From contig NZ_FZNT01000001.1 in NCBI RefSeq assembly GCF_900188235.1, positions 186,001-250,000 on the forward strand: 64,000 nucleotides of DNA, in the 5' to 3' direction. The notes beneath the pieces were generated by a model. It was not told where the DNA came from, ran no database searches, and was given only the letters and a program-made list of their open reading frames with translations. The stretch is from Lutibacter agarilyticus. Lineage in GTDB: Bacteria > Bacteroidota > Bacteroidia > Flavobacteriales > Flavobacteriaceae. Of the stretch, positions 137 through 41,481 are shown piece after piece (within the stretch, counting starts at the first letter, position 1; every line of letters begins with the position of its first letter). The translations under genes and the position numbers were made by a program.

Positions 137-1492
137 ATGAAATCTTACTATTTTGTACTTATTATTTTTTTAATATTATCCTGTAAATCAAATAAGCAAA
201 ATATAAATATTAGTGACTTTGGTGCAAAAGGAGATAGCTTAACTATCAATACAAAATTTATTCAAAAAGCCATAGATGAATGTTTTGAAAATGGAGGAGG
301 TACAGTGGTGGTTTCTGATGGAGTTTATATCACTGGAACTATTTTGTTAAAAGACAATGTTACGTTGCAGGTTAATGAAAATGCAACCCTATTTGGAAGT
401 GCTAATTTTGCCGATTATATAAATATTGATCCGTTTATTGATGCCACAGGTCAGGCAAGAGGAAACTGTTTAATTGGAGCTAAAGATGCAACAAATATTG
501 CCATTACAGGTAAAGGTACTATTGACGGTAATGGAGAGAATTTTATAGCTACCAACTATAAAATCCAAAAAGAGAAAAACCCTAATCTGCCAAGTTTTGA
601 TCGTCCGTTTTTAATTCGCATTGTAAATTCTTCAAAATTAAAAATGCAAGATATTAACATTAGGCAAGCAGCAGCTTGGGCAGTGCATTTGTTTCAATCA
701 CATGATATTACAATAGACAATGTTGATATTTATAACCACGCAAACAAAAATAACGATGGTATTGATATAGATTCTAGTTATGATATTACCATTACCAATA
801 CAAAAGTAAATTCTGAAGATGATGCTATTTGTATCAAAGCTACCAGTCCGTTGCCAACATACAATGTAAAAGTGAGTAATTGCGATATAAAAAGCGATTG
901 GGGTGCTATTAAATTTGGTACTGAATCTATGGGAGATTTTTACAATATTGATATTAGAGATTGTAAAATTCACGACAATAAAGGTGGAGGAATCAAATTA
1001 TTGAGTATGGACGGCACAAATATTTACAATATTGTAATTGATAATATTATAATGGATAACGTTGATATGCCAATTTTTGTTCGCTTAGGTGAGCGTTTAA
1101 GAACGTATAGAGATGTAGAAAAACGACCAGTAGGTTCTATCAATAATGTGGTAATTAGCAATATTAAAGCAACAACTATGGGGTTAGAAAACTCTAGAGT
1201 TTCGCCACCAGCGGGGATCTTAATTACAGGTACACCTAACCATAAAATTGGAAGTCTACAATTAAAAAATATAGACATTCAATTACCTGGAGGTGGTTTG
1301 TTTACAGATGTTGTTGAAGTGCCTGAAGATGAAACTCGTTATCCTGAGTTTAGTTTCTTTGGTGTTTTACCAGCTTACGGAATGTATGCTAGGCATATTG
1401 AAACGTTAGAAACAACCAACGTTAATTTTAAAGTTTTAGGAAAAGATGAGCGTGAAGAAATTATTTTAGAGGATGTTTTTAATCGTAATTAA
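137..1492 (+). CDS. GH28-like beta-helix glycoside hydrolase, lipoprotein
   Basis: Predicted exo- or endo-acting glycoside hydrolase of the GH28 (polygalacturonase-like) fold. A lipoprotein signal ends at a lipobox with Cys16 (ILSC). The mature part starts with the FGAKGD motif common in pectin-lyase-fold proteins and continues as right-handed beta-helix coils rich in Asn/Ile. GH28 acidic motifs are visible: NNDGID around residues 205-210 and EDDA around 227-230. The usual GHG histidine motif is replaced by GTES at 261-264, a variant I associate with a large uncharacterised Bacteroidetes GH28 branch, so galacturonan need not be the substrate. No acidic residues follow the lipid Cys, which favours a periplasmic position. 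First gene of an operon with GH117, sulfatase and GH16, so a role on algal galactan is inferred. Confidence 0.85.
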   Translation: MKSYYFVLIIFLILSCKSNKQNINISDFGAKGDSLTINTKFIQKAIDECFENGGGTVVVSDGVYITGTILLKDNVTLQVNENATLFGSANFADYINIDPFIDATGQARGNCLIGAKDATNIAITGKGTIDGNGENFIATNYKIQKEKNPNLPSFDRPFLIRIVNSSKLKMQDINIRQAAAWAVHLFQSHDITIDNVDIYNHANKNNDGIDIDSSYDITITNTKVNSEDDAICIKATSPLPTYNVKVSNCDIKSDWGAIKFGTESMGDFYNIDIRDCKIHDNKGGGIKLLSMDGTNIYNIVIDNIIMDNVDMPIFVRLGERLRTYRDVEKRPVGSINNVVISNIKATTMGLENSRVSPPAGILITGTPNHKIGSLQLKNIDIQLPGGGLFTDVVEVPEDETRYPEFSFFGVLPAYGMYARHIETLETTNVNFKVLGKDEREEIILEDVFNRN

Positions 1493-1532
1493 TTATTAAA
1501 AAAAGTAACAAAATTATCTAATATACAAAATC

Positions 1533-2810
1533 ATGAAAATCAAATTATTGAATCTATTAATACTTGTTGTAAGTTCAACTTTATTTATGATCTCTTGTGA
1601 ACCAAAGCAAGATGAAGTCGCTGAACAAAAAAGTTTTCCATTTCAATTACCAAAGGAAAAACCAAATATGCCTTTGAGTAGGGCTATGGAACGTAATTAT
1701 GATAATTATTTAGCACCAAGACCTGAAGATAACGAGTTATATACACAGTTTAAATATACAGAGTTAAAAGGTTTTGATTATAATAATCACGATGGTACTA
1801 TTTCAAGAAGAGATCCTTCAAAAGTAATTTTTGAAAACGGAAAATATTATGTGTGGTACACCCATAGGGAAACACCAACACCACCACAGGGAGCAAAAAA
1901 ATGTAATGATACTATTCCGTCATCAGACTGGGATTTATGTGATATTTATTATGCAACTAGCATAGATGGTTTTACTTGGGAAGAGGAAGGTGTTGCAGTA
2001 CCAAGACCTCCAAAACCAAATGTAGGATGGAGATCTGTTGCTACAACCGATATTTTAAAATGGAAAGGGAAATATTATTTGTATTATCAAGGTTTTATGG
2101 AAGCAAGTGGATTGCGTGGAGATGATTGCCCAGTGGCAGTTTCATATGCCGATTCTCCTGACGGCCCTTGGACTGCAGCAAACCAAATTGTAATTCCAAA
2201 TGGTCCTAAAGGAGCTTGGGATCAATATTCAATTCACGATCCATATCCGTTGGTATATAATGATAAAATTTACTTGTATTATAAGTCAGATTTCGATGGG
2301 AAACCAAATTTAGTCAGAATGCAAGGGGTGGCTACAGCAGATAATCCGTTGGGTCCTTTTACTAAAAGTCCTTTAAATCCAGTGTTAAATTCTGGACATG
2401 AGACTACATTATTTCCTTTTAAAACAGGAATTGCAGCATTAACAATCAGAGACGGTAATGAGCATTATACCATTCAATATGCTGAAGACGGAGTGAATTT
2501 TGAAATAGCAGCTATTGTGAGTGATTTAATGCCAAATGCAGGAGGGCCTTTTATACCAGATGCATTTACAAATACAAAAGATGGAAGAGGAATTACTTGG
2601 GGAATTTCACATTTTACCAACGTTACGACTTGGAGTGAAAATCACGCAATTTTAACACGTTTTGACTGTGATTTAAGTCAGGATGTAAACGATCCACAAA
2701 TGAAAAAAAGTCATATTTATTATAGGCCAGAGGATTATTACAGACAAGGCTTAAGTAAACAACAAAGAGAAAGAATAGCAGCCGAAAATCAAAAACTTCA
2801 AAACAATTAA
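1533..2810 (+). CDS. GH117 alpha-1,3-(3,6-anhydro)-L-galactosidase-like lipoprotein
   Basis: Likely removes 3,6-anhydro-galactose from the non-reducing end of agar-type oligosaccharides. Lipobox Cys22 (MISC). Residues 49-54 (SRAMER) fit the N-terminal SxAxxR motif that mediates domain-swapped dimers in GH117. The five-bladed propeller core contains DPS (Asp94) in the position of the catalytic base, TTDILKWKGKYY near 172-182, HDPYPL near 235-240 and GHETT near 288-292, whose His fits the unusual catalytic acid of the family. Length of 425 residues is usual. It begins 40 bases after the GH28-like gene and ends 6 bases before a sulfatase gene, so the three are co-transcribed. GH117 clades differ in specificity, so the exact anhydro-sugar is not settled. 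Confidence 0.88.
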   Translation: MKIKLLNLLILVVSSTLFMISCEPKQDEVAEQKSFPFQLPKEKPNMPLSRAMERNYDNYLAPRPEDNELYTQFKYTELKGFDYNNHDGTISRRDPSKVIFENGKYYVWYTHRETPTPPQGAKKCNDTIPSSDWDLCDIYYATSIDGFTWEEEGVAVPRPPKPNVGWRSVATTDILKWKGKYYLYYQGFMEASGLRGDDCPVAVSYADSPDGPWTAANQIVIPNGPKGAWDQYSIHDPYPLVYNDKIYLYYKSDFDGKPNLVRMQGVATADNPLGPFTKSPLNPVLNSGHETTLFPFKTGIAALTIRDGNEHYTIQYAEDGVNFEIAAIVSDLMPNAGGPFIPDAFTNTKDGRGITWGISHFTNVTTWSENHAILTRFDCDLSQDVNDPQMKKSHIYYRPEDYYRQGLSKQQRERIAAENQKLQNN

Positions 2811-2816
2811 TAACAA

Positions 2817-4373
2817 ATGAATAACATAATTATTAAATTAAAACAATTGGTAGTTATTGTTTTTATGCTCTCTTTTATTGGTGTTTTTTCACAAAATAAA
2901 AAGACGATAAAACCAAATGTATTGGTTATTTATACGGATGATCACAGGGCATCTGGAATTCATAAGTTGGGAGGAATGGATGTTGAAACTCCAAATTTAG
3001 ATAATTTGGTAACCGAGGGTATAGCATTCAAAAAAACATATTTAATGGGAGCTTTTACCGGTGCAACTTGTATTGCGAGTAGAGCAATGCTACATTCAGG
3101 TAGACAGTTATTTACTTTAGAAGGTCAGGGGAGAAGCATTCCTGCTAAACATACCACAATGGGCGAAACCTTTAAAAATGCAGGATATAATACCTTTATG
3201 GTGGGTAAATGGCATAACGACAACGCTTCTTTAATTCGTTCTTTTGATGATGGTGAAAAAGTGATGGGACGAGGTGTTTATTTGGTAGATCATTTTAGAA
3301 TGCCATTTCACGATTGGGATAAAGACGGTAAATTTAAGAAAGAGGATGCTTATTTATTGGTATATGATGAAAATGGAAATACGGTAAAAAGAGCCATTAC
3401 AAAAGAAGATAAAAGAGGACCAATAGGCACAGAAGAAAATGGACCTCATACTTCAGAAGTATTTGCAAAACACGCTTCAGACTATATAAAAAATTACAAA
3501 AAGAAGGATCCATTTTTTATGTATGTAGCTTTTCATGCGCCTCACGATCCTCGTCAGGCTCCAAAAGCGTATAAAGATATGTATCCGCCAAATGAAATTG
3601 AATTGCCGCCATCTTATTTGCCTCAACACCCTTTTGATAATGGACATATGGTGTTGCGTGATGAAAAATTAGCTGTTTGGCCAAGAACTGAAGCAATTGC
3701 TAAGCAGCAATTATCAGATTATTATGCAATTATTACACATTTAGATGCGCAAATAGGAAAAGTTATTAAAGCATTAAAAGAAAGTGGTGCTTATGAAAAC
3801 ACCATTATTGTATTAGCGGGTGACAGTGGTTTAGCTGTTGGAAATCACGGTTTAATGGGCAAACAAAATATATACGATGAAGACGGAATTCATGTTCCCT
3901 TTATTATTTCAGGAGGTTTGGTTCAAGATAAAGGAATAGAGATCAACGCTTTTAGTTATATTCATGACATTTTTCCAACTATTTGTGAATTGGCAGCTAT
4001 TGAAATTCCAGCCTCAGTAAACGGTAAAAGTTTAGTACCTGTAATTAATAATGAAGTAGCCGAAGTTAGAAATTCAACATATCATGCGTATCGTCAATTT
4101 CAGCGTGCGTATAGAAAAGGTGCATATAAATTAATTGAATATGTACGAGCTAAAGGTTTCAATAAAAAAACAGGTGAATTTGAAGCGGGTTCAAGGGTGA
4201 CCCAACTTTTTAATATTGAAAAAGATCCTTGGGAAACTACAGATTTATCATTTTTTCCAGAATATTTCGAAATTTTAGCTGAAATGCGTAGAGAAATGAT
4301 GGCTAAAGCCATTAAACTTGGCGATAAAAAAGAAAGTATTAATGAGCAATTTGATTTTTGGGATTACTATTAA
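2817..4373 (+). CDS. S1-family FGly-dependent sulfatase (exported)
   Basis: Type I sulfatase expected to remove an O-sulfate ester from a galactan oligosaccharide. An N-terminal signal peptide (about 26 residues, ending VFSQ) directs export. The formylglycine motif is CIASR at 85-89 (Cys85 to be converted by a maturase not encoded in this window). The calcium-site aspartates DD at 41-42 and the downstream AGDSG segment are present, as is the HAPHDP stretch seen in iduronate-2-sulfatase-like members. It lies 6 bases after GH117 and 42 bases before GH16, so it most likely acts on the same oligosaccharides. The S1 subfamily and the sulfate position cannot be decided by eye. Confidence 0.9.
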   Translation: MNNIIIKLKQLVVIVFMLSFIGVFSQNKKTIKPNVLVIYTDDHRASGIHKLGGMDVETPNLDNLVTEGIAFKKTYLMGAFTGATCIASRAMLHSGRQLFTLEGQGRSIPAKHTTMGETFKNAGYNTFMVGKWHNDNASLIRSFDDGEKVMGRGVYLVDHFRMPFHDWDKDGKFKKEDAYLLVYDENGNTVKRAITKEDKRGPIGTEENGPHTSEVFAKHASDYIKNYKKKDPFFMYVAFHAPHDPRQAPKAYKDMYPPNEIELPPSYLPQHPFDNGHMVLRDEKLAVWPRTEAIAKQQLSDYYAIITHLDAQIGKVIKALKESGAYENTIIVLAGDSGLAVGNHGLMGKQNIYDEDGIHVPFIISGGLVQDKGIEINAFSYIHDIFPTICELAAIEIPASVNGKSLVPVINNEVAEVRNSTYHAYRQFQRAYRKGAYKLIEYVRAKGFNKKTGEFEAGSRVTQLFNIEKDPWETTDLSFFPEYFEILAEMRREMMAKAIKLGDKKESINEQFDFWDYY

Positions 4374-4415
4374 AATGAAACAAAAGGATTTAAAAATAAC
4401 ATAAATATAAATAAA

Positions 4416-5306
4416 ATGAAGTCAATAATTAAAATATCAAAACAAGTTGTAACGTTAGTATTGCTTTTAATAGCAACTACTATGCTTGCACAAAAAGCAC
4501 CACAATTTAAAGATGGAGAAGACCCTAAGTCAACTGGTAAAAAATGGAAGCTGGTTAAAAATATGTCTGATGAATTTAATGGAAAAAAAATAAATAATAA
4601 AAAATGGCAAACATCAGGGCAAGGATGGATTGGCCGTGCACCAGGATTGTTTTTAGCCGAAAATGTGAAAGTAGCAGATGGTAGTTTACAAGTAACAACC
4701 ACAGCATTGCCTAAAACGGTTATTAAACATAATAAAGAATTTACTTATGGAGGTGGTTATGTTGGGTCAAGAAACGCAATGACTTATGGTTATTACGAGT
4801 GTGAAATGAAAGCCAATAAAACTTTTATGTCCTCAACCTTTTGGTTAATTAATGGAGGTAAAGGATTAGAAGGGTGTGATAAAAGAACTACAGAATTAGA
4901 TATTCAAGAATGTGTTGGAGAAATAACAAATCCTGCTAAATGGATGAAAGATTTTGACCAAGCAATGAATTCTAATACACATAGTAGAAATATTCCAGAA
5001 GGTTGTGATTATATTAAGGGAACATCAAAAGGAAGAGCAGATATAGCAGGAAAAGTATACGATGATTTTCATATTTATGGTGTTTGGTGGAAATCTAAAG
5101 ATGAAATTTTATTCTTTTTAGATGGTAAATTTCAATCGAAAGTAAAACCACCATCAGATTTTAATATTGAAATGTATTTAAGAATGGTTGTTGAAACCTA
5201 CGATTGGAATAAAGCTCCTGCTGATGGAGGAATGAATGGTTCTAAAGAAGATAGAACAACTTATTACAACTGGGTTAGATCTTGGGAATTGGTTGATAGT
5301 AAATAG
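4416..5306 (+). CDS. GH16 endo-beta-galactanase (agarase/porphyranase-like)
   Basis: Predicted endo-acting beta-galactanase that cuts the polymer backbone. Signal peptide of about 25 residues (ends TTMLAQ), then a single GH16 jelly-roll domain to the C terminus with no binding module. The catalytic signature is ELDIQE at 160-165: Glu160 nucleophile, Asp162 and Glu165 acid/base. The C-terminal ETYDWN..PADGG stretch is shared with the second GH16 of this window (17317-18162) and resembles agarase/porphyranase subfamilies rather than laminarinases. Fourth gene of the GH28-GH117-S1 operon. Beta-agarase versus beta-porphyranase cannot be separated without subfamily alignment. Confidence 0.88.
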   Translation: MKSIIKISKQVVTLVLLLIATTMLAQKAPQFKDGEDPKSTGKKWKLVKNMSDEFNGKKINNKKWQTSGQGWIGRAPGLFLAENVKVADGSLQVTTTALPKTVIKHNKEFTYGGGYVGSRNAMTYGYYECEMKANKTFMSSTFWLINGGKGLEGCDKRTTELDIQECVGEITNPAKWMKDFDQAMNSNTHSRNIPEGCDYIKGTSKGRADIAGKVYDDFHIYGVWWKSKDEILFFLDGKFQSKVKPPSDFNIEMYLRMVVETYDWNKAPADGGMNGSKEDRTTYYNWVRSWELVDSK

Positions 5307-5421
5307 AGTATTACTAAATGTAAAGTAAATATAGTATTGATAATGTTAGTTTTAATGAAGTTGGGAATTACTATTAATTAATAATATACAACTAAAAATA
5401 AATGTACTTAACTAATTATTT

Positions 5422-6288
5422 ATGATTAAAAAATTTTACGCTTTTTTAGCAATTATACTAATTTCTGGAAGTTTATTTTCTCAAGCTTGGAATTATAATA
5501 ATAACCGAATAGCTGTTAGTTTTGACGGGAATAGTGCTGCCGATAATGCCTATAAATGGCCAACAGGAGATCCAGATGATTGGGGAGCTTTAGTAGCTTC
5601 TTGCGCCATAATAGCTAAATTAGAATTACAGGATAAACTAGTACATTGTTCTTACAATAATTTTATTGATGCTCCTGCCGGACCTGACAATGAAAATCAA
5701 TTAAAAATGAGTGCTGATGGATGTATTGAAAGATGGAATTTTCAAAAAAACGTGTTTTTTGATGTTACTACACAATTAAAAGAGGCTAAATCAAATTTAG
5801 CAACAGAGATGGGAAAATCAACGGCTGAAAATCCATTGTATTTTTTACATGCCGGATTATCGGAATTTTTATATCAGGTAATAGAAGAGGTAATTGCTCA
5901 AGGAAACATTGAAGCACTTAACCATGTTTATCTTTTATCTCATAGTAAATTCAATGAAAACGAAATAAGAAGAGATTATCACCATACTTGGGATGATGTG
6001 CAAAAATTATGTGGCAATCGTATTAAGTACAAAAAAATACAAGATCAGAATGATAAAAACAATCCTGAAAATTTATGGCATTCAATGGATGACTTTTCAG
6101 TTTGGTATTGGATGAGAGACCATAAAGATCCTAACATAAGATGGATGTATGAAAGAATGCAGGCTCATAGTGTGGGGCATGCTGATATTTCAGATTGTGG
6201 TTTATTTTATTATTTACTTGTAGGTGACGATAATGGAAACCCACAAAAATTTAAAAATTTTATTGGAGAAGGGATATATAATAATTAA
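5422..6288 (+). CDS. Secreted nucleoside-hydrolase-like protein of unknown function
   Basis: Secreted protein (signal peptide ending about residue 21, SLFSQ) that I cannot assign to a defined family. After the signal, IAVSFDGN and then GDPDDWGA (Asp50, Asp52, Asp53) recall the calcium-binding Asp cluster of nucleoside hydrolase or DUF1593-type proteins. A second conserved-looking strand reads YLLSHS, followed by a region rich in His, Trp and Asp, and the C terminus has GDDNG. It is last in the operon, 115 bases after GH16, which suggests a role in processing the same glycan. The fold assignment is inference from motif resemblance only; a metal-dependent hydrolase of a sugar derivative is possible. 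Confidence 0.6.
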   Translation: MIKKFYAFLAIILISGSLFSQAWNYNNNRIAVSFDGNSAADNAYKWPTGDPDDWGALVASCAIIAKLELQDKLVHCSYNNFIDAPAGPDNENQLKMSADGCIERWNFQKNVFFDVTTQLKEAKSNLATEMGKSTAENPLYFLHAGLSEFLYQVIEEVIAQGNIEALNHVYLLSHSKFNENEIRRDYHHTWDDVQKLCGNRIKYKKIQDQNDKNNPENLWHSMDDFSVWYWMRDHKDPNIRWMYERMQAHSVGHADISDCGLFYYLLVGDDNGNPQKFKNFIGEGIYNN

Positions 6289-6291
6289 AAT

Positions 6292-6396
6292 AAAAAGCTG
6301 CATACCCACAGCATCTCATAAAATTTATACTTGTTTTTATCTAAAACAAACAAGCAACGTTTGTTGCGTTAGAACCTTCAATGCAGCTTTTCTAAT
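6292..6396 (+). terminator. Long hairpin after the first operon
   Basis: AAAAGCTGCAT at 6293-6303 and ATGCAGCTTTT at 6381-6391 form a perfect 11-bp stem, followed by T-rich sequence. The loop of 77 bases holds a nested hairpin with GCAAC and GTTGC arms. It sits 5 bases after the stop of the last gene. It may terminate the operon or be a structured 3' end. The rest of 6289-6572 has no gene. Confidence 0.45.
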
Positions 6397-6538
6397 TACA
6401 CACTTGACAAAACATTACCTTTGTCTTTTTAAACACTTTTCAATATAAATAACTTCAAAAAGAACAGTAATACTTTATTAATAACCATTTGTTATTCAAA
6501 AATAGTTAAATGTTATGTTCCCTTTATATGTATCGTAT

Positions 6539-6546
6539 TATTTTTG
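6539..6546 (+). promoter_or_regulatory. Possible -7 promoter element before the beta-helix gene
   Basis: TATTTTTG fits the TAnnTTTG -7 element and lies 27 bases before the ATG at 6573. No clear TTTG at normal spacing is seen upstream, so this is weak. A second fit, TACCTTTG, lies at 6416-6423. Confidence 0.3.
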
Positions 6547-6572
6547 ACTCATAAAAATAAACATTTAAAACG

Positions 6573-9161
6573 ATGCTAAAAACTACTCGATTTTTTATAC
6601 ACCTTTCTTTTATATTAATAAGTTCTGTGATTTTTGCTGAAAACATTTATGTTGCTACCAATGGGAATGATACAACAGGTAACGGTACTATTGATAACCC
6701 ATATAGAACATTTAATAAAGCAATTTCATTAATGTCGGCTGGCGATGTTTGTATCATAAGAGGAGGTATTTATGAAGAAGAATTATCAGTTAATAAAAGT
6801 GGAACTGCAGGTAATTTTTTAACATTTAAAGCCGCTGATGGCGAAAATGTTGAAATTAGAGCCACATCTAAAATAAATGGCTGGCAAGTTCATAGTGGTA
6901 ATATTTATAAAGCAACCGTAAATATGTCTATGGAAAGCAGATTTCGTGCTGTATATCACAACGGTAAATTTATGGATTTAGCGCGATGGCCAAATAACAC
7001 AGATAATAGCCGCTGGACTATAGATTGCACACCTGTAACAGGTGGTGATGGTGCTCATTTTACAGCAGATAACATTCCTAATATAGATTGGACTGGTGGT
7101 TTGGTATATTACCTTGGCGCACATTCTGGAACTAGTTGGACCAGAACTATTACCAGTAGTTCTAACACAAGAATAGACTATACAGGGGTTGATATTACTA
7201 AATGGCCATTTACCCCACATAACCCAACACAATGGAGAGAAAACCCAGGGAATAATAGAGGGCAATTGTACTTGTTTAATAAATTAGAAGCGTTAGATTA
7301 TGCAAATGAATGGTTTTATGATAGCGCTACAAATACGCTTTATCTTCAAACTGCTGATGGAGATATGCCTGCTGATGGAGCTGTGGAATATGCAACATCA
7401 AAATTTATTTCAGAATTAAAAGGTGATTATATTAAACTAGAAGGTTTAAACTTTTTTGGAGGAAGTGTTAAAATCGACAATAATGCTGATAATAACCAAA
7501 TTATTAATTGTAAAATAACTCACGGTAGTGAGGGATATGACTCTTTAACTAATACATCAGCTCAAGTTGGTGAGGCATCTCTTGAAATTCTTGGAGACAA
7601 CACTTTAATTAAAGGTTGTACTATAAATCACAGTTCAGTAAGCGGTATACTAATAGCTGGTTGGGCTGCTTCAAATTGTACTGTTGAAGAAAACTATATT
7701 AGTAATATTGATTATTTAGGAATTCATGCATCACCAATTAGAACTAGCGCTAACAATATGAAGGTGTTAAAAAACACCATTGTTAATGCTGGTAGAGATG
7801 GTATGTACGTGTCAGGCTCTAATTGTGAGATTGCTTACAATGATGTTTCTGGATCTCAAAAAATTAATAGTGATTCGGGAGTGTTTTATACTGTTGGAAA
7901 TGCCAATTTAAAGAATAATGAACTTCATCATAACTGGTTTCATGATGCTACTGCACCAGCTTATTCTCATAAACCGGGAGAACCTGGTAAAGCTGCAGGA
8001 ATCTATTTAGATAATAACAGTAAGGGCTATACAGTACATCACAATGTTATTTGGAATGTGTCTTGGAGTGGTTATCAAGTAAATTGGAATAATACCAATT
8101 TAGACTTTTTTCATAATACTATTTGGAATGCTGAGCGCGCTATGGATTCTTGGGTTAATGGTTATACACAAGAAAACAATAAAATATATAATAATTTTGC
8201 AAATACTGGTGAATGGTTTAGTGAAACCTCAACTGATTTTGATATAAAAGACAATTTAATCACAAGTACTTCACCTTTTGAAGATGACAATAATCAAAAT
8301 TTTATGCCAAAAGCCGGAAGTGAAGTGTTTGATACTGGAAGAGTTATTGCGGGTTTTACAAAACCTTTTAAAGGAAATGCACCAGATATTGGGGCTTATG
8401 AAAGATTTGGGACCAAATGGACAGCAGGTGTTAATGCTATTGAAGATACAGGAGAAGGAGATAATTTAACTATCTATGACACTCAATTTACGATACTAGC
8501 AGCTACAGAAACTTGCCCTAATCAAAACAATGGTAAAATTAATATTGAAGCTGATTTAGAACAAAATTATAAGGTGAGTTTCAATGGTGTGGATACAAAT
8601 TTCACTAAGGAAATTGATATAGAAGATATAGAACCAGGTGTTTATGAGTTGTGTATTTCATTAATTGGTAATACAGAAAGCCAGTGTTTTAATGTTGATA
8701 TTAAGGCAGCATCTCAAATTTCTGGAAAATCTTCTTTAGGGAAGAATAAACTTTCTGTAGATATCCAAAAGGGAACTGCTCCTTTTTCTGTATTTATAAA
8801 CAATAATAAGGTATATGAAACATCTGCTTTGTCATTTGAAGTTGATGTAATTCAAGGAGATGAGGTTAAAATACAATCTAGCAAAGATTGTGAAGGAGAA
8901 ATGAATGAAATTATTGATTTTTATGGCAACATAGTTGCATACCCAAATGCCACTACTGGAGATTTTCAATTGTTATTACCTATAAATGAAGGAACTATTT
9001 TTATTGAAATATATGATGTTTATTCACGAATAATATCTTCCAGATTATATGAAATTGAATCTGGAAGAATAAACCTAAGTTTAAATAACAAACCTTCAGG
9101 TGTATATTTTGTTAGAGTTATGGGTAAAAAACCAGTAAGTATAAAGGTGGTGAAGCAATAA
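6573..9161 (+). CDS. Large parallel beta-helix protein with T9SS sorting domain
   Basis: Secreted 862-residue protein. Signal peptide of about 22 residues (ends VIFAEN), then the NIYVATNGND start typical of DUF1565/right-handed beta-helix CAZymes, with many Asn-rich coils to about residue 600. Segments such as MDLARWPN, GRDGMYVSG, HHNWFHDA and HHNVIWN are also found in the protein at 23093-25819, so the two are paralogs. Residues from about 650 carry small beta-sandwich repeats, and the last 80 or so form a type A T9SS sorting domain (AYPNATTGDF, GVYFVRV), so the protein is secreted or attached at the cell surface. Folds like this include GH120, GH141 and polysaccharide lyases, but I cannot choose a family. 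Probably its own transcript. Confidence 0.75.
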   Translation: MLKTTRFFIHLSFILISSVIFAENIYVATNGNDTTGNGTIDNPYRTFNKAISLMSAGDVCIIRGGIYEEELSVNKSGTAGNFLTFKAADGENVEIRATSKINGWQVHSGNIYKATVNMSMESRFRAVYHNGKFMDLARWPNNTDNSRWTIDCTPVTGGDGAHFTADNIPNIDWTGGLVYYLGAHSGTSWTRTITSSSNTRIDYTGVDITKWPFTPHNPTQWRENPGNNRGQLYLFNKLEALDYANEWFYDSATNTLYLQTADGDMPADGAVEYATSKFISELKGDYIKLEGLNFFGGSVKIDNNADNNQIINCKITHGSEGYDSLTNTSAQVGEASLEILGDNTLIKGCTINHSSVSGILIAGWAASNCTVEENYISNIDYLGIHASPIRTSANNMKVLKNTIVNAGRDGMYVSGSNCEIAYNDVSGSQKINSDSGVFYTVGNANLKNNELHHNWFHDATAPAYSHKPGEPGKAAGIYLDNNSKGYTVHHNVIWNVSWSGYQVNWNNTNLDFFHNTIWNAERAMDSWVNGYTQENNKIYNNFANTGEWFSETSTDFDIKDNLITSTSPFEDDNNQNFMPKAGSEVFDTGRVIAGFTKPFKGNAPDIGAYERFGTKWTAGVNAIEDTGEGDNLTIYDTQFTILAATETCPNQNNGKINIEADLEQNYKVSFNGVDTNFTKEIDIEDIEPGVYELCISLIGNTESQCFNVDIKAASQISGKSSLGKNKLSVDIQKGTAPFSVFINNNKVYETSALSFEVDVIQGDEVKIQSSKDCEGEMNEIIDFYGNIVAYPNATTGDFQLLLPINEGTIFIEIYDVYSRIISSRLYEIESGRINLSLNNKPSGVYFVRVMGKKPVSIKVVKQ

Positions 9162-10741: not shown

Positions 10742-10768
10742 GTTTTAAATGTATTAAAATTTAAAGAA

Positions 10769-11257: not shown

Positions 11258-11350
11258 TTTTTGTGTAGGTTATAATTTTAGAATGCAAAAATTGTAAAAC
11301 CTTCTGAGAAAAAAGTTGAACTAGTTCAATTTAATAAAAAAACTATTAAG

Positions 11351-13567: not shown

Positions 13568-13569
13568 TT

Positions 13570-28286: not shown

Positions 28287-28306
28287 TACGGTTTTTTTAA
28301 AAATTA

Positions 28307-28343
28307 AAAAAAGGTACATTTTAAATATAAATGTACCTTTTTT
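28307..28343 (-). terminator. Terminator after the second GH29 gene
   Basis: 15-bp perfect stem (28307-28321 with 28329-28343), 7-base loop, T-rich end. It lies 29 bases past the GH29 stop at 28372 and upstream of the GH3 start, showing that these genes are separately transcribed. Confidence 0.85.
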
Positions 28344-28371
28344 ATTAATCAATCAATCAACTTAACAATAA

Positions 28372-33994: not shown

Positions 33995-33997
33995 AAT

Positions 33998-34777
33998 TTA
34001 CTCTTTTATAAATTTGGCTAGTTTGCCATTATCTGTTTTTATTAAATATACACCTTTAGTTAACGTAGAGACATCAACAGTTGTTTTGTTTTCGACTTTT
34101 AATACTTGTTTTCCAGTAACATCAAAAATACGAACAGATTTAATTTCTTGATCTTTGTCTTGAATAGTTAAGGTATTTGTAGTAGGATTTGGATAGATTC
34201 CTATTTTAAGAAGCTCATAGTTTTTAACTCCTAATGTTGATGCTGTTGTTTGTGCAATATCATCAATGTAATAAACATCACCAGCTATTAATTCTGTTCC
34301 AGTATGAAATTCAAAGTCCATTCTAGAAAGATAGCCCTCTATTGAAGATGTGCAATCAAATTCAATGGTTTGCCATGTTGTTGCTGAAGCTCCAGTGAAA
34401 TTAGCAATTATGGCAGGTTGTTTTTTTCCACTAATCCAAGGGTAAAAGTAAATTGATCCATTTTCAATAGGAGAAATAAATTTTAAATTAAAAAATTTCC
34501 CTAATGTAGTATTCACTTGAGTTCCTCCTGTTTTTAAATCAATAAAAGGATATGCCCAAAAACCAATATTACTATTAATTGTATATTTTAACACATTAGC
34601 ACCAGTATCATTTCCTGTAGTTCCAGAAGGGTTAGATTCTATAGTGGCTGAGGTGTTTGCTGCACCTTGATGACCAATAGTGTAAACTGGAGCAGTTTCC
34701 TCAAAATCAATTGTTAATTGCCCAAATGACATTGTAGTTACAAACAATGCAACTGTAAAAAGTAATTTTTTAATCAT
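33998..34777 (-). CDS. T9SS-sorted carbohydrate-binding-like protein
   Basis: 259 residues. Signal peptide ends near 19 (TMSFGQ). Residues about 20-175 form one beta-sandwich (IDFEETAPVYT, WAYPFIDLKTG, MDFEFHTG, YYIDDI) that resembles carbohydrate-binding modules and matches the last domain of the SusE-position lipoprotein in style. Residues from about 185 form a T9SS type A sorting domain (LKIGIYPNPTTNTLTIQ, GVYLIKT, AKFIKE). No catalytic domain, so a secreted or surface glycan-binding protein is likely. It starts 174 bases beyond the susE-like gene and is followed closely by the 134-residue gene. Confidence 0.75.
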   Translation of the reverse strand: MIKKLLFTVALFVTTMSFGQLTIDFEETAPVYTIGHQGAANTSATIESNPSGTTGNDTGANVLKYTINSNIGFWAYPFIDLKTGGTQVNTTLGKFFNLKFISPIENGSIYFYPWISGKKQPAIIANFTGASATTWQTIEFDCTSSIEGYLSRMDFEFHTGTELIAGDVYYIDDIAQTTASTLGVKNYELLKIGIYPNPTTNTLTIQDKDQEIKSVRIFDVTGKQVLKVENKTTVDVSTLTKGVYLIKTDNGKLAKFIKE

Positions 34778-34951: not shown

Positions 34952-36520
34952 TTATGGACGGTCATCCACTTCAATAATACGAAGATCATCAAAGTAAAGT
35001 GTTCCTACACCATTGTGTCTTATGTACACAAAAAAGTCATCTCCAGTTTTATTTGAAGTCCATTTTTTATTGAATCTTATGGTAGTCCAAGTATCAAATG
35101 GGACAGCTTTAATTTGGTTATCCCAAAATTGTGTAATAGTTGTTCCTGGTAATTGAGAAACCCAAGGGGCTAAAAAGTTTAGAGCTGCACCTGAAGCTTT
35201 ATAAACTTTCATTTCGTATTGAATTACTTGCCCAGTTCTTAAAGAATATTGGTCTATTGGGTTTTCAAAAGCCGACCAGTTTCCTGCTTCTGTTGATTCA
35301 ACTTTTAAGCTTTTGGTACCACTAACAGCTTGTTCTTCTGAAATGTAAATACTAGTACTTGGTTTGTTGGCAACATGTGCAGTCCAGTTTGAACCACCCG
35401 TTTCAAAATCAAAAGTAATTAATTCATGTTGGAACATTGATACAGGGGCATCTGTAAATGCAACAGGTTTCCTAGTATCAGTTGACTCTAAATCAGAACC
35501 ATCAGCTAATGAAATAGTTATAACATCTTCTCTGTAAATAGGATCTTGTAATTTTAAATCAAGGATAGTAGCATCATCTTCATTTAAAGTAACAGTAGCA
35601 ATTGCAAATTCAGCTCCATTAACCATGACAGTAAAAAAGCTTTCTTGAGCTGTGAAATCTACAAACTCACCGTTAAAAGGAATGTGAATTGTTTGATTTT
35701 CCAATTCCATAACATTACCATACAGTTCAAAAGGTTTGCTTGAAGGAATTACTTCAAAAGTTGCAGGAATATTGTATTTTTCATAGTCTCCTGGAACATC
35801 TTCACCAGTTCTACTTGCTGTAAATGATCCTTTCCATGTACCTAATTTTTTAAACACAATTGTAGAAACTGAGTCAGTTGCTGTAGAACCACCAACATTC
35901 CATAAACGAGTGTTAGGTCTTCCAATAGCAGTAGCATCAATAAACTCTAAATTATCACCAGCTTCAACAAAAATCACATCAGATTCATTTTCGTGAGATA
36001 TTACTGCTCCATTTTGTTTCACAATAATAGTTGGTACAATGGTATCATACACATCTACTACAAAAGTAGTATCTATCACCCATTTATCACCCACTTTTTT
36101 AGAAGGAAAAACCACTTCTTCTTGTCCACTAACCCCTTTAAAAGTTACAGAATCTTTAAATGTATTGTAAAGATTAACGGTGTTCAAACCAGATTGTTTA
36201 AATAATATATGCACTGTTGGATCTGAAGATTCAAATAATGCAGGCTCAATAATAAAATTCTCAAATATTGAATCTGTTCTTTCAATAGGTCCCTCTAAAA
36301 AGAAACTTCCATCTCCAATTGTCCAAGTATGGTCAATTGCTCCTTGGGAAAGATCCGAGAACGACATAAAATTATTAATATTTAATTTAAAATCAGTATC
36401 ACGTAGAGCACTGGTATACCATCCTACATCTGAAAACGAATTAGGGGTTTCGTAATCATCCTCACACCCAACAAAGACTGCGGTTAGTACGAAAGCCATT
36501 AAAATTATTATTTTTTTCAT
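34952..36520 (-). CDS. SusE-position surface glycan-binding lipoprotein
   Basis: 522-residue lipoprotein with lipobox Cys19 (VFVGC) followed by acidic EDDYE, which fits the surface-export signal of flavobacterial lipoproteins. Several Ig/PKD-like beta-domains fill the first 370 residues (SHENESDVIFVEAGDN, TRLWNVGGSTATDSV). The last 150 residues form a carbohydrate-binding-like beta-sandwich with Trp-rich strands (FDFETGGSNWTAHV, APWVSQLPG, YFDDLRIIEVD). It lies 67 bases past susD and is expected to help capture the polysaccharide at the cell surface. A TAATTTTG element at 36543-36550 hints at an extra promoter. Confidence 0.82.
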   Translation of the reverse strand: MKKIIILMAFVLTAVFVGCEDDYETPNSFSDVGWYTSALRDTDFKLNINNFMSFSDLSQGAIDHTWTIGDGSFFLEGPIERTDSIFENFIIEPALFESSDPTVHILFKQSGLNTVNLYNTFKDSVTFKGVSGQEEVVFPSKKVGDKWVIDTTFVVDVYDTIVPTIIVKQNGAVISHENESDVIFVEAGDNLEFIDATAIGRPNTRLWNVGGSTATDSVSTIVFKKLGTWKGSFTASRTGEDVPGDYEKYNIPATFEVIPSSKPFELYGNVMELENQTIHIPFNGEFVDFTAQESFFTVMVNGAEFAIATVTLNEDDATILDLKLQDPIYREDVITISLADGSDLESTDTRKPVAFTDAPVSMFQHELITFDFETGGSNWTAHVANKPSTSIYISEEQAVSGTKSLKVESTEAGNWSAFENPIDQYSLRTGQVIQYEMKVYKASGAALNFLAPWVSQLPGTTITQFWDNQIKAVPFDTWTTIRFNKKWTSNKTGDDFFVYIRHNGVGTLYFDDLRIIEVDDRP

Positions 36521-36542: not shown

Positions 36543-36570
36543 CAAAATTACTTTTCTAATAAATTGTCAA
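36543..36570 (-). promoter_or_regulatory. Possible internal promoter before the SusE-like gene
   Basis: TAATTTTG (36543-36550, minus strand) with TTG 17 bases upstream (36568-36570), 22 bases before the lipoprotein start. Could raise expression of the binding protein above SusCD. Weak because TTG is short. Confidence 0.3.
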
Positions 36571-36586
36571 TACAATTTAACTTGTT

Positions 36587-38371
36587 TTACAAATTTGGAT
36601 TTGCTACAACTTCGCTATTTGGTATTGGCCAATATGCGTGTTCAGATTCAATATAATTTTGAGATGATTGTAAAAATTCCTTAAAATCAGGTTGAACTAC
36701 AGCAGGATTACCTTTATAATCAAGTGCTCCGTCAAAATAATTTTCTAATGAAGATCCCCATCTTGTAGATTCTTTTCCATCAACTGTAATAAAAGGATAA
36801 TCATTTGCAAAATATTCTCTTGTTGATAATTCTTCAAAACGTTGTTTTGTAATTCCCCATCTTCTCATATCAATACCACGAATTGAATTTCCTTCAGCAG
36901 CTAATTCTAAAGGTCTTTCAACATACATTAAATGTTCCATTAAGCTTTGTGCAGTATAAACAATATCATCGTGATCGTTAGCAGGGTATTGCCCTGTTCC
37001 GGTTAAGCCTAATAATCTAACAGCAGAACGTCTTCTAACTTGATTGATTGCATCAAGAGCTTCATCAACACCACTATCATTTGCTCCACCTTCAATTAAA
37101 CATTCAGCATACATTAAAAGTACATCTGCTAAACGAATAACTCTTACGTTTACACCTGATCTTGGAACTGCTTGAGAAATATCTTTTTCATTCTCTGCAA
37201 TATCCCAGTTAGTATATTTTCTGTAATATGCTGTTTCCTTATTATTAAAAGCAGTTGCTTGGGCTGTTGTTAACCCGTAATAAGGTAAATCTCTATCATC
37301 AACTAATGCAATAGAGTATGAAGCTCTTAATGAATAATCTCTAAACCTTTCAGTACCATCCTCTTCAGTAACAGTATTTATTGGGTCAGAATAATCAAGC
37401 GTTTCATTTTTATACTCCATAATTAACCAACATGAAGGGTAACAAGATCTCCATCCACCTACTGGGCTAAAAGCAAAGTTATTAGTACTTGAAGTTTGTT
37501 CACCTGCATAAGGATTAAGTTCTGCATTATAAGTTAGTGAATAGTTAATTTCAAGAATAGATTCTGAATTTAATTCATCCATTGTTGTAAAGTTACTACC
37601 AATATTTGGTGCTAACACATATCCAAAATCATCAATTACACTTTTGAAATATGTTTTTGCAGTTGCGTAATCTCCTTCATACAAATAACTTTTACCAATT
37701 ACAGCTGTTGCAGCACCTACAGTAACTCTACCTAAATCAGAAGGATTTGTCCACTCTGTAGGAAGGTTTTCTTTTGCAAATTCTAAATCAGTTAAATAAA
37801 AGTTTTTAACATCTTCAGGAGCACTAACTGGTTGGTAAAAATTAGCTTCAGAAGTTGGTACAAAATCTAAAATAGGTACTGAACCTTGATTAAAACCATT
37901 GTATAAATAGAAGTAAAATAAACCTCTAAAAAATTTAGCTTGTGCTAATATTATTAGTGCACTATCTTCTTCTTGCTCAGTTGCGAAAGTACCCATTAAT
38001 TTATCACAGGCTTCAATTACTTGGTTAGCTCTAAATATTCCTTTATATAGAGCTTGCCACTTGGCATTTGGAGCATCAGATGCATCATTAAATGTTTGTA
38101 ACCAATATACATTACTTGTGTTAGGTCGTCCCCATCCTGGGTATGTTAAATCAGTTCTATTATACTCATCACTTACACGCATTATATTACCGTCTTTAAA
38201 AGCATTATATACGGCATTTTGACCAGCGTTTAAATCATCAACTGTTTTCCAAAAACTGTCAGTTGAAATTTGGTTCGGATTCACCTCTTCGAGGAACTCC
38301 TTGCTACAAGCAATAAATGATAAAGCTATTATCAATATAATTGCAAATTTGCTATTCATTATTTTTTTCAT
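36587..38371 (-). CDS. susD: SusD/RagB family glycan-binding lipoprotein
   Basis: 594-residue lipoprotein, lipobox Cys22 (FIAC), with the CSKEFLEEVNPNQIS start typical of SusD. N-terminal TPR-like helices (FWKTVDDLNAGQNAVYNAF, ALYKGIFRANQVIEAC) and the C-terminal SusD domain (VIRLADVLLMYAECLIEGG, INQVRRRSA, ERPLELAAEGNSIRGIDMRRWG) are complete. It caps the SusC transporter at the outer membrane and binds the oligosaccharide. It starts 17 bases past susC and is translated from the same message. The ligand is inferred to be the sulfated galactan handled by the neighbouring enzymes. Confidence 0.95.
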   Translation of the reverse strand: MKKIMNSKFAIILIIALSFIACSKEFLEEVNPNQISTDSFWKTVDDLNAGQNAVYNAFKDGNIMRVSDEYNRTDLTYPGWGRPNTSNVYWLQTFNDASDAPNAKWQALYKGIFRANQVIEACDKLMGTFATEQEEDSALIILAQAKFFRGLFYFYLYNGFNQGSVPILDFVPTSEANFYQPVSAPEDVKNFYLTDLEFAKENLPTEWTNPSDLGRVTVGAATAVIGKSYLYEGDYATAKTYFKSVIDDFGYVLAPNIGSNFTTMDELNSESILEINYSLTYNAELNPYAGEQTSSTNNFAFSPVGGWRSCYPSCWLIMEYKNETLDYSDPINTVTEEDGTERFRDYSLRASYSIALVDDRDLPYYGLTTAQATAFNNKETAYYRKYTNWDIAENEKDISQAVPRSGVNVRVIRLADVLLMYAECLIEGGANDSGVDEALDAINQVRRRSAVRLLGLTGTGQYPANDHDDIVYTAQSLMEHLMYVERPLELAAEGNSIRGIDMRRWGITKQRFEELSTREYFANDYPFITVDGKESTRWGSSLENYFDGALDYKGNPAVVQPDFKEFLQSSQNYIESEHAYWPIPNSEVVANPNL

Positions 38372-38388
38372 TGTTTTAATGTTTTTGA

Positions 38389-41300
38389 TTAAAAGTCTAA
38401 TTGAACACCAATTCTATATTGAGAGCTTACAGGATAAGTTCCTTTATCTATACCTTTAGTGCTTAAACCATTATTACCAACCTCAGGATCAAACCCTGTG
38501 TATTTTGTGAAAGTTAAAGGGTTTTGAGCTCCAATATATACACGTAATTTAGAAATCTTGGCTTTTTCTAACTTGTCGTTAGGTATTGTATATCCTAAAT
38601 TTACATTACGTAATCTTACAAAAGAACCATCTTCAACCCAATGATCTGTGTATCCTCTATAGTTTTCGTGGTCACGACCTCTATTAGTAGGGATGTTTGA
38701 ATCTGGGTTTTGAGGAGACCATTGGTAAACTAAATCTTTATTAGTTCCATATTTATAAGTGAAAGCTTTGTTACCATTCAAAATTTCAGCACCCTGTGAA
38801 GTATACCATTGCATATAAAAATCGAAATTTTTATAATCAGCAGAGAAATTAAATCCAGCTTCAAAATCAGGAGTACCGTTACCCATTGCAATTCTATCGT
38901 CATTATCAATTGTTCCGTCATTATTCCCATCAACATATCTTAAATCACCTAAATTAGCTGTAGGTACTATGTTTTTGTACTCATCTAATTGTTCTTGGGT
39001 TTTTATAATACCATCTGTAGGTACTAAGAAAAATGTTCCAGCAGTATATCCTTCGGCAATTGCAGACACTAAATCTTCATTAGGTACACCTGCAACTACA
39101 GTACTATTATCTAAATAAGCTATTTTATTAGAACCACTCATTTTAGTAATTGTATTTTCGTTGTGTGTAAAGGTAGCTCCAACATTCCATGAGAAATTAC
39201 CTTTATGACGGTAATTTACAGCAAATTCATAACCTACGTTTTCCATATCACCAACATTTAATACAACAGTAGCGTTTTGACCAGCACCTGTAGTAGGAGG
39301 TAACAACAATGGGAATAACATATCTTCTTTCTTTGTATTATAAAAATCTCCAGATAATGTTAAACTATTTTTTAAGAAACCAAAGTCGAAACCAAAGTTT
39401 GTTGATTTTGAAGTTTCCCATTTTACATCTGGGTTCGCATAACCAGTTTGTGTAGCTCCAAGGGCTAAATTATCACTCCCTTCAGGTCCAAAAATATAAT
39501 TTTGAGCTATTGTAATTGTAGGTGCGTTACTATAATCAAGGAATCCTTGGTTACCAGTTGTACCGTAAGAAGCTCTTAATTTTAATGAACTAACGGTATT
39601 TTTAATTGGTTCCCAAAAGTTTTCATCTGATACATTCCACCCAGCAGAAGCAGAAGGAAATATACCCCACCTGTTAGCTTTAGAAAATCTTGAAGAACCA
39701 TCTCTACGAATACTAGCACTTAATAAGTATTTACCTTTATAATCATATTGTACACGACCTAACATACCAATTAATGAAGTTGTTTTGTCTTGTCCCCATC
39801 CTTTTCCTGAACCGGCATTTGGGTCTAAAGTGGCTCCGTTTAATACAGTAACATCATTACTTACTAAGTCAAATTTTTGAGCAAAAAATGAAGTGAATGT
39901 ATATTTTTCAGAAGAATACAATAATAAAACTTTTAGTTGATGATCACCAAACTGTTGCTTATAATCAAGTGAGTTATCCCAAGTAGTTTTTGTAGATCTA
40001 TCACTGTAGTTATATACTCCTGACCTTACATTAGAAGGTATAAGATCACCTTCATCATCATACGCCTTAAATAATGGATTTATTCTTACACGTGTGTTAT
40101 TTCCATATTGTAAGGCTGCTCTTGTAGTAAATGTTAAGTTTTTAGTAATTTTATAAGATGCATTTATGTTTGCATTAAATTGGTCACCATCTCTAACATC
40201 GGTTTGTTGAAATTTTTGTGCTAAATTACTTCTATTTTGAGCGCTATTACTTCCACCAGGCCCTGAAGTTTGAATTGTTTCTTGATCTGGATCAATTTCA
40301 TTTTGGTAAGGGTGAAATTTATACGCATCTAATATAAGGTTCCAAGCAGCATATTCTTGCTGTTCAATTCTAAAGCCCATTCCAGTATTAATTTTCCATT
40401 TACCTTTTGTGAACTGAGTATTAGCCCGTACGTTAAAACGGTCATAACCAGAATTAGTAATCATACCATCTTGACTGAAAAAGTTTCCAACTACATTGTA
40501 AGAAAGACCATCTTTACCACCCGAAACACTTAAACTGTAATTTTGAATAGGAGCATTGTCATTTTCTACAATAGGTCTTAAATCTGAATTGTTAGTTAAT
40601 TGCAATGTGTTATACTCAATAGGAGTCCAAGAATTTCCATAAGTAGTACCATTAAGCGTTGCTTTACTTAAAAATTGTACATATAAATCTTCTTCAACAT
40701 TTACTAAATCGGTACCAGAAGTAATGCTTTGGATTCCATAATATCCATCAACAGAAATCTTCATTTGTCCCATTTTACCTTGTTTGGTTGTAATTAAAAT
40801 TACCCCACCAGAACCACGTGTACCATAAATAGCAGCAGATGCGGCATCTTTTAATACATCAATAGTTTCAATTTCATTCATACTTAATTTAGGGTCGCTA
40901 TCAAAAGGAATTCCATCCACTACATATAATGGTTGACTAGAACCTGAAATTGAGCTTAAACCACGAATTGTAATATTAGATTCAGAACCAGGAGCACCAG
41001 AACTAGCAACAACATTTACCCCAGCAATTTGACCTTGTAAAGCCGTTCCTAAATCTTGTGTTGCAACTTGGCTAATTGTTTCAGATGAAATTTGAACAAC
41101 TGCACCTGTTACTTCCTTTTTCTTTTGGGTACCATACCCAATTACTACAACTTCATCTAAAGCAGCAACATCAGATGTTAAAGCTACATTAATGGTTGTT
41201 TTTCCGTTCAAAGAAACTTCTTTAGCTTCAAACCCTATGTAGCTGAATATAAGTACATCTTTAGGTTTCGCAGTAATTTCAAAGTTTCCATCAAAATCAG

Positions 41301-41481
41301 TAACCGTTCCATTCGATGATCCTTTAACAAGAACAGTTACACCTGGTAAAGCTTCTCCTTCACCAGTAACAGTACCTTTTACAGTACTTGTTTGTGCTTG
41401 AATTGAACTAAAACTTATTAATAACACACAGGTTAATAAATAAGCTTTGATTTTCCAATTAACAAGTAAATTGAATTTCAT
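38389..41481 (-). CDS. susC: SusC/RagA TonB-dependent glycan transporter
   Basis: 1030-residue outer-membrane transporter from the start at 41481 (MKFNLLVNWKIKAY, signal peptide ending SIQAQ); an in-frame ATG at 41517 would only add 12 residues lacking signal character. A carboxypeptidase-regulatory-like domain covers about 30-110 (GVTVLVKGSSNGT). The plug begins near 118 (EVVVIGYGTQKKKEVTGAV) and ends before the 22-strand barrel, which carries the SusC-typical LYVVDGIPF and KDAASAAIYGTRGS. The last residue is Phe, as usual for outer-membrane barrels. Paired with SusD downstream. No FecR-type signalling N-terminal extension is present, so this is not an ECF-coupled SusC. Confidence 0.95.
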   Translation of the reverse strand: MKFNLLVNWKIKAYLLTCVLLISFSSIQAQTSTVKGTVTGEGEALPGVTVLVKGSSNGTVTDFDGNFEITAKPKDVLIFSYIGFEAKEVSLNGKTTINVALTSDVAALDEVVVIGYGTQKKKEVTGAVVQISSETISQVATQDLGTALQGQIAGVNVVASSGAPGSESNITIRGLSSISGSSQPLYVVDGIPFDSDPKLSMNEIETIDVLKDAASAAIYGTRGSGGVILITTKQGKMGQMKISVDGYYGIQSITSGTDLVNVEEDLYVQFLSKATLNGTTYGNSWTPIEYNTLQLTNNSDLRPIVENDNAPIQNYSLSVSGGKDGLSYNVVGNFFSQDGMITNSGYDRFNVRANTQFTKGKWKINTGMGFRIEQQEYAAWNLILDAYKFHPYQNEIDPDQETIQTSGPGGSNSAQNRSNLAQKFQQTDVRDGDQFNANINASYKITKNLTFTTRAALQYGNNTRVRINPLFKAYDDEGDLIPSNVRSGVYNYSDRSTKTTWDNSLDYKQQFGDHQLKVLLLYSSEKYTFTSFFAQKFDLVSNDVTVLNGATLDPNAGSGKGWGQDKTTSLIGMLGRVQYDYKGKYLLSASIRRDGSSRFSKANRWGIFPSASAGWNVSDENFWEPIKNTVSSLKLRASYGTTGNQGFLDYSNAPTITIAQNYIFGPEGSDNLALGATQTGYANPDVKWETSKSTNFGFDFGFLKNSLTLSGDFYNTKKEDMLFPLLLPPTTGAGQNATVVLNVGDMENVGYEFAVNYRHKGNFSWNVGATFTHNENTITKMSGSNKIAYLDNSTVVAGVPNEDLVSAIAEGYTAGTFFLVPTDGIIKTQEQLDEYKNIVPTANLGDLRYVDGNNDGTIDNDDRIAMGNGTPDFEAGFNFSADYKNFDFYMQWYTSQGAEILNGNKAFTYKYGTNKDLVYQWSPQNPDSNIPTNRGRDHENYRGYTDHWVEDGSFVRLRNVNLGYTIPNDKLEKAKISKLRVYIGAQNPLTFTKYTGFDPEVGNNGLSTKGIDKGTYPVSSQYRIGVQLDF

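Follow-up and report, generated by a model that had tools for sequence, protein, structure and literature searches.

A probable porphyran utilization super-locus of Lutibacter agarilyticus, with a corrinoid methyltransferase cassette beside its methylgalactose operon

Which galactan does the large polysaccharide utilization locus (PUL) at the start of a 64,000-nucleotide stretch of the Lutibacter agarilyticus genome serve, and how far does this locus reach? The stretch (hereafter the window) corresponds to positions 186001-250000 of contig NZ_FZNT01000001.1 (C8) in a 4.1-Mb assembly of 22 contigs from this flavobacterium, which belongs to the same family as Mariniflexile maritimum (genome G134); plain positions below are those of the window, and those prefixed C8 are those of the contig. 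PUL-type genes fill 137-41517, and a first-pass annotation made from the sequence assigned them tentatively to an agar/porphyran-type sulfated galactan, perhaps carrying xylose. That assignment was right in kind and can be sharpened: given a PorB-type glycoside hydrolase family 16 (GH16) enzyme, an L-galactose-6-sulfatase-type sulfatase and an exo-alpha-L-galactosidase-type GH29, the window very probably covers the downstream portion of a super-locus for porphyran utilization.

Evidence for porphyran and rival substrates

The families, nearest solved relatives, gene linkage and recurrence in other genomes are established by sequence: family calls were made with Pfam and NCBIfam profiles and nearest solved relatives were found by PDB sequence searches, and with three matches above 400 bits, chance is no concern for the family calls. 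The window contains the set expected of a porphyran PUL, namely a predicted beta-porphyranase, a predicted S1_11-type L-galactose-6-sulfatase, a predicted GH29 exo-alpha-L-galactosidase and a SusC/SusD pair. To these are added a second GH16 near PorB (45% identical to the first, without a Pfam match) and, upstream, a protein with porphyranase domains and an operon for 6-O-methylgalactose (G6Me), in which genes for a P450, a ferredoxin, a ferredoxin reductase and an alcohol dehydrogenase (ADH) are adjacent, as a G6Me module requires.

From these features we infer the order of steps, the substrate of each enzyme and the regulation. The window GH16 enzymes and the upstream porphyranase-domain protein would cut porphyran into sulfated oligosaccharides to be imported by the SusC/SusD pairs; the L-galactose-6-sulfatase-type enzyme would take the 6-sulfate off terminal L-galactose, after which GH29 would free L-galactose and GH2 beta-D-galactose. 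Agarose-like segments would fall to GH117 and the anhydro-L-galactose genes upstream, and 6-O-methyl-D-galactose would enter the P450/ferredoxin/reductase/ADH operon.

Parts of the window core are found elsewhere in the family. Among 397 family genomes, a P450 orthologue was found in 29 (P450-positive; sets include L. agarilyticus unless stated, and genomes lacking any match at E<=1e-60 count as P450-negative). A PorB-like GH16 is present at E<=1e-50 in 24 genomes, of which 22 are P450-positive, and PorB at >=63% identity in 17, of which 16 are P450-positive; the counted genomes share ancestry, and Fisher values overstate their independence. The 20 kb around PorB were searched in the 16 other genomes of the >=63% set (tblastn, E<=1e-15, at least half the query; gene types are named by their window start). 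A window-type GH117 lies within about 10 kb of PorB in eight of the 16, GH29 (a) and the 12050-type sulfatase are near it in six each, GH29 (b) in five and a GH28-like gene in three. In M. maritimum, one 105-kb contig holds the P450 operon, the anhydro-L-galactose genes (the block being conserved at 64-89% identity) and homologues of the window SusC, SusD, sulfatase, apiosidase-like, GH29 and beta-helix genes.

Several observations weigh against porphyran. The 31763-type (S1_11) sulfatase is near PorB in only four of the 16 genomes, and in five of the 16 neighbourhoods no locus gene but PorB was found, save a weak SusC match in one of them (PorB alone in the other four); in a further span PorB is accompanied only by a 5422-type protein. 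The porphyran reading gives no role to GH3, GH43, GH28 and the apiosidase-like protein. The closest described locus, ZGAL_3628-3640 of Zobellia galactanivorans, which likewise clusters two GH16 (putative porphyranases), two GH28, GH2, GH29, sulfatases and SusC/SusD, shows strong induction on both kappa- and iota-carrageenan, including two sulfatases, of S1_28 and S1_30; GH117, beta-helix, GH3 and GH43 are not mentioned for it in the available part of the account, and its authors nonetheless favour sulfated agars as substrate (PMC5698469). If the window genes served carrageenan or furcellaran in the same way, their GH16, GH28, GH2, GH29 and sulfatases would act on a D-galactan, and the second GH16 does match a kappa-carrageenase model, at 44 bits against a cut-off of 350. 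Its best PDB match is nevertheless PorB, as for the first GH16, and one sulfatase and GH29 (b) are nearest L-galactose enzymes; on these relatives carrageenan was set aside, and with porphyranase domains, GH117 genes and the G6Me operon in the same super-locus we regard it as very improbable.

More weight attaches to the idea that two or more independent loci for different galactans (for example agarose, porphyran and a branched galactan) adjoin by chance, which we consider rather unlikely. The region has three SusC/SusD pairs, unrelated genes stand between the two divergent window blocks, and many other genomes carry PorB, P450 and the beta-helix gene on different contigs or far apart. Yet in two relatives, G061 and M. 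maritimum, the 12050-type (S1_15-like) sulfatase, the apiosidase-like gene and the 31763-type sulfatase directly adjoin, in that common order, AraC and the P450 operon, and GH29 and beta-helix genes lie on the operon's other side. The extra side groups proposed in the first-pass annotation would fit a xylosylated, corallinan-like agaran, for which the two GH3, the GH43 with CBM6 and the apiosidase-like protein of the minus-strand block could speak; but nothing xylose-specific was found, no subfamily support for xylosidase activity was obtained, and a GH3 also occurs in the upstream anhydro-L-galactose block, leaving this alternative improbable. Porphyran remains the preferred substrate.

Extent and gene content of the super-locus

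Pfam and PDB searches recovered at 137-41517 all the families that had been named there: two GH16 with the ELDIQE motif, GH117, GH2, two GH29, two GH3, GH43, a GH28-like enzyme, three S1-type sulfatases, one SusC/SusD pair, a DUF5060 and apiosidase-like enzyme, and two beta-helix proteins, both with type IX secretion system (T9SS) tails (Table 1). The extent first given, 137-41481, needs correction at both ends, as the SusC frame reaches 41517 and the left limit is set by the window alone: similar genes extend at least 86 kb further upstream, to at least C8:100205. With C8 read from 100001 onward, the left end is a lower bound, and the super-locus spans at least 127 kb, from C8:100 kb or earlier to 227.5 kb. 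The genes do lie together, as had been proposed for one composite PUL, but the window part consists of two divergent blocks. The plus-strand block (137-9161) runs from the GH28-like gene to the first beta-helix gene, and the minus-strand block from SusC at 41517 to the sulfatase at 12050, in the order of Table 1 read upwards, with two small exported proteins between the putative glycan-binding lipoprotein and the first sulfatase. Three genes of non-PUL type separate the blocks (9215-11923); they encode a Dabb/lactonase-like protein, an HbpS-like protein and a cyclic-nucleotide-binding (cNMP-binding) regulator, by family unrelated to the PUL. Just past the PUL, at 43599-45894, an Lnb-type membrane protein gene adjoins a PorV-like (T9SS) gene.

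Table 1. Genes of the super-locus in contig order
Feature	Position	Strand	Basis or remark
GH16 and SusC/SusD pair	C8:100.2-107.8 kb		GH16 at edge of the part read; pair at 102982-107822
Protein with porphyranase domains, T9SS tail; then GH2	C8:110001-112640		domains taken by us to be GH86
ADH, KduD-like short-chain dehydrogenase, aldehyde dehydrogenase, GH3, enolase-superfamily enzyme, aldose epimerase, RhaT-type transporter, second GH117	C8:115353-125534		
GH88-DUF2264	between anhydro-L-galactose block and AraC		
AraC regulator	C8:132349-133203	-	
Corrinoid cassette	C8:133322-138164		about 48-53 kb upstream of window
MT1 (in cassette)	C8:133322-134380		UroD-type methyltransferase
P450 operon (G6Me)	C8:138325-145676		P450, ferredoxin, ferredoxin reductase, ADH, esterase, GH2
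CoA-linked block	C8:148279-160692		
GH29, GH2, GH3; four sulfatases, interspersed with a second GH28-like gene	between CoA block and next SusC/SusD		
SusC/SusD pair	C8:175651-180280		
FG-GAP protein, major facilitator (MFS) transporter, GntR regulator	between that SusC/SusD pair and window		
GH28-like exported enzyme	137-1492	+	Pfam GH28 95 bits; NCBIfam rhamnogalacturonidase 247 bits, cut-off 500
GH117, 4u6d type	1533-2810	+	4u6d 760 bits, 80% identical over 392 columns
S1-type sulfatase without close solved relative	2817-4373	+	Pfam; best PDB match 121 bits
GH16 beta-porphyranase, PorB type	4416-5306	+	3juu 505 bits, 209/272 aligned residues identical (77%)
Unassigned exported protein	5422-6288	+	no Pfam/NCBIfam match; weakly resembles nucleoside-hydrolase-like folds
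Secreted beta-helix protein, T9SS tail	6573-9161	+	Pfam/NCBIfam give only Beta_helix and T9SS tail; model resembles BT_1002
S1-type sulfatase, nearest solved relatives S1_15A/B	12050-13618	-	9bas 201 bits
GH43 with CBM6	13570-14904	-	Pfam
GH3	14918-17296	-	Pfam
Second GH16, porphyranase-like	17317-18162	-	best PDB match 3juu (PorB) 216 bits
GH29 (a)	18209-19765	-	Pfam; 41% identical to GH29 (b)
GH2	19783-22257	-	Pfam
Small lipoprotein, weak Fn3 match	22395-23093	-	Pfam
Second secreted beta-helix protein, T9SS tail	23093-25819	-	36% identical to first copy
GH3	26058-28352	-	Pfam
GH29 (b), nearest exo-alpha-L-galactosidase	28372-29919	-	7snk 442 bits, 7ljj 441 bits
DUF5060 and apiosidase-like protein	30038-31663	-	Pfam
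Exo-L-galactose-6-sulfatase-type sulfatase (presumably S1_11)	31763-33439	-	7lha 584 bits
Small exported protein, T9SS tail	33998-34777	-	Pfam
Putative surface glycan-binding lipoprotein	34952-36520	-	weak CBM_11; position beside SusD
SusD	36587-38371	-	Pfam
SusC-type TonB-dependent transporter	38389-41517	-	Pfam

For the window GH117, Pfam gave only a weak GH43 match, the best PDB matches being GH117-type entries; against AhgA and BpGH117-type entries it scores 193-212 bits, far below its score for 4u6d, and we know of no demonstration of anhydro-galactosidase activity for the 4u6d type. Its RRDPS, HDP and SGHE motifs recur in the upstream GH117, a neighbour of the anhydro-L-galactose genes and the stronger candidate for the anhydro-galactosidase step. 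The genes at C8:115353-125534 are read as anhydro-L-galactose catabolism after ZGAL_4657-4669, as described in the available part of PMC5613140. Five of the seven sulfatases (three in the window, four upstream) match the cysteine sulfatase core pattern; in the remaining pair, inspection by eye gave CIASR for the one at 2817-4373 and CIPSR for the one at C8:170786. Rhamnogalacturonan was discarded as the substrate of the GH28-like enzyme on its below-cut-off NCBIfam scores. For the protein at 5422-6288, with relatives in 18 of the 29 P450-positive genomes, a Foldseek search returned no match at E<=0.001 (best E 6.8e-3), and the model (predicted local distance difference test, pLDDT, 69) is too weak to name an activity; nucleoside hydrolase, the best-ranked resemblance, was not adopted. 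Two relatives of this protein (L030:12604-14469 and L044:499-2367) are fused to an extra domain of more than 300 residues without a Pfam match.

The first beta-helix protein has counterparts at >=62% identity over the catalytic part in 15 of the 29 P450-positive genomes and in none of 29 P450-negative controls, which were hand-picked and not random; six of these controls have any match at E<=1e-40, one at 34% to the catalytic part and the rest essentially to the tail. Its model (pLDDT 80.6) resembles BT_1002 in fold (5mqp, E 2.3e-19, template modelling (TM) score 0.60-0.63, 15-16% identity), which we take to be a GH141 enzyme. The use of GH29, a family of fucosidases, on L-galactose in this pathway makes it a reasonable guess that the beta-helix proteins are GH141-like enzymes that would act on alpha-L-galactose linkages.

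Downstream of the P450 operon, the CoA-linked block encodes two RhaT-type transporters, an aldehyde dehydrogenase, an enoyl-CoA hydratase, an IclR regulator, a Gfo/Idh oxidoreductase and a MaoC hydratase (some named by eye), two family III CoA-transferases, and two cytoplasmic-looking, solute-binding-protein-like proteins without a visible signal peptide. The first of the latter has matches in 28 of the 397 family genomes at E<=1e-60 and in ten at >=66% identity, nine of them P450-positive; five of the 29 (L. agarilyticus, G019, G084, G119 and G248) carry it no more than 25 kb from the P450.

The corrinoid methyltransferase cassette

Between a minus-strand AraC gene and the P450 operon lie, in order, genes for MT1, a corrinoid protein, MT2 (a UroD-type methyltransferase with a thioredoxin-like C-terminus, CAPC), a CobW GTPase and a MetH-activation-like protein. 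Profile scores are 93 and 194 bits for URO-D and 83 bits for B12-binding, and the cassette thus combines a UroD-superfamily methyltransferase with a corrinoid protein, as a corrinoid O-demethylase does.

AraC is divergent and directly upstream of the P450 operon in 23 of the 28 other P450-positive genomes, matching at >60% in nine of the 23 and at 36-42% in 14, perhaps another AraC; in the exceptions it is on the same strand (G119), on the other side (G177 and G326) or absent from the span (G334 and G084). The operon itself occurs as P450-ferredoxin-reductase-ADH (e.g. G246, G286, G370) and as ADH-esterase-P450-ferredoxin-reductase (e.g. G061, G002, G019). MT1 at E<=1e-40 was found in two of the 397 family genomes, L. 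agarilyticus and M. maritimum, and a scan of named genomes for the cassette yielded four loci, in Lutibacter citreus, L. oricola, an uncultured Lutibacter and M. maritimum. In all five known carriers, L. agarilyticus included, it sits between AraC and the P450 operon, promoter-proximal in both architectures (the first in L. agarilyticus and the other Lutibacter loci, the second in Mariniflexile); in the gene order common to G061 and M. maritimum, the cassette is the difference. Identity of the carriers to L. agarilyticus is 93-96% for MT1, 88-93% for the corrinoid protein, 82-93% for MT2, 72-81% for CobW, 69-74% for the MetH-activation-like protein and 72-86% for P450. Of 296 sampled genomes of the phylum, 15, L. 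agarilyticus included, have an MT1 match at E<=1e-15; in the others identity is no more than 34%. The simplest reading of this arrangement is that the cassette would be co-expressed with the G6Me genes and has moved between lineages.

Could it O-demethylate porphyran sugars by a second route that depends on a corrinoid? We put this forward as a tentative possibility. MT1 would move the methyl group from a methylated galactose onto the adjacent corrinoid protein, the thioredoxin-fused MT2 would hand it on to homocysteine or another thiol, and the MetH-activation-like protein would reactivate the corrinoid. The cassette has no dedicated folate methyltransferase, and the genome has only two Pterin_bind proteins, both on other contigs: a MetH-like 910-residue frame with a B12-binding match and a 279-residue frame that is probably dihydropteroate synthase. 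With no folate methyltransferase besides MetH, a thiol acceptor is more likely than folate. No Ram/RACE activase was found among the cassette genes, to which that search was confined, and MT1 had no PDB match at E<=0.001. By eye, all five copies of MT2 have Phe in place of the 4ay7-site His and retain both Cys, and in MT1 HSCG is intact but the last Cys position reads SPSH; the usual metal site is only partly kept in each methyltransferase, which speaks against a simple MtbA-like mechanism and is a caution for the cassette's function. Co-location argues for shared use with porphyran, not for a given reaction, and haloalkanes or methyl-sulfur compounds are rival substrates (PMC13222342, PMC10418091). 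Among the matches listed in a literature search (title, start of abstract and term counts), no paper linked corrinoids to porphyran or methylgalactose.

Relation to known systems

The core is a porphyran locus of a known kind, but unusually large; the less ordinary additions are the porphyran-linked secreted beta-helix protein, the CoA block and the corrinoid cassette inside the methylgalactose operon region. The porphyran PULs of Bacteroides plebeius share the porphyranase GH16, S1_11 sulfatase, GH29, GH2 and SusC/SusD, but are much smaller and, in the part of the account available, have no demethylation genes around them; B. plebeius GH16C accepts the methyl group (PMC12316285). Both window GH16 enzymes have Thr where 8ep4, by its numbering probably BpGH16C, has Gly132 (the second GH16 placed via its PorB alignment), and they look methyl-excluding rather than methyl-tolerant. 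The Ag-PUL of Bacteroides uniformis NP1 resembles the super-locus in its GH16, GH2, two GH117, GH29, GH86, three sulfatases, Sus genes and RhaT homologue, but is an agarose system of a gut bacterium, and its GH117A is without known activity in the portion of that report available (PMC5849685).

The oxidative G6Me demethylation module of Formosa and Zobellia likewise groups P450, ferredoxin, reductase, ADH, esterase and GH2, whereas a corrinoid cassette such as the one preceding it here is not mentioned in the accessible part of its description (PMC10033563). Type 1 mlp gene clusters also join several UroD-superfamily methyltransferases to a corrinoid protein with no folate methylase in the cluster; as far as the available text goes, they differ in carrying a Ram/RACE activase and in belonging to obligate anaerobes (PMC10418091), whereas our cassette, which adjoins an O2-dependent P450, encodes a CobW GTPase together with a MetH-activation-like protein. 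In the Cdm chloromethane system and UroD-type O-demethylases, too, a UroD-superfamily methyltransferase gives the methyl group to a corrinoid protein, but these act on haloalkanes or methoxylated aromatics and, according to the part of the source available, have a folate methyltransferase (PMC13222342), of which none was seen in the cassette.

Porphyran degradation is a model for the acquisition of seaweed genes by gut bacteria, and the super-locus offers candidates for porphyran steps without an assigned enzyme (the beta-helix proteins, the 4u6d-type GH117 and the GH28-like enzymes) and for a porphyran-linked CoA pathway. If the cassette works as proposed, it would be, as far as we know, the first corrinoid O-demethylase for a carbohydrate, none having been known to us before, and its route would save the methyl group that the oxidative route loses as formaldehyde and would need no oxygen. 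Demethylation of the methylated fraction of porphyran in anaerobes has been called undiscovered, in the available part of PMC12316285; for that question, the corrinoid cassette is a named candidate.

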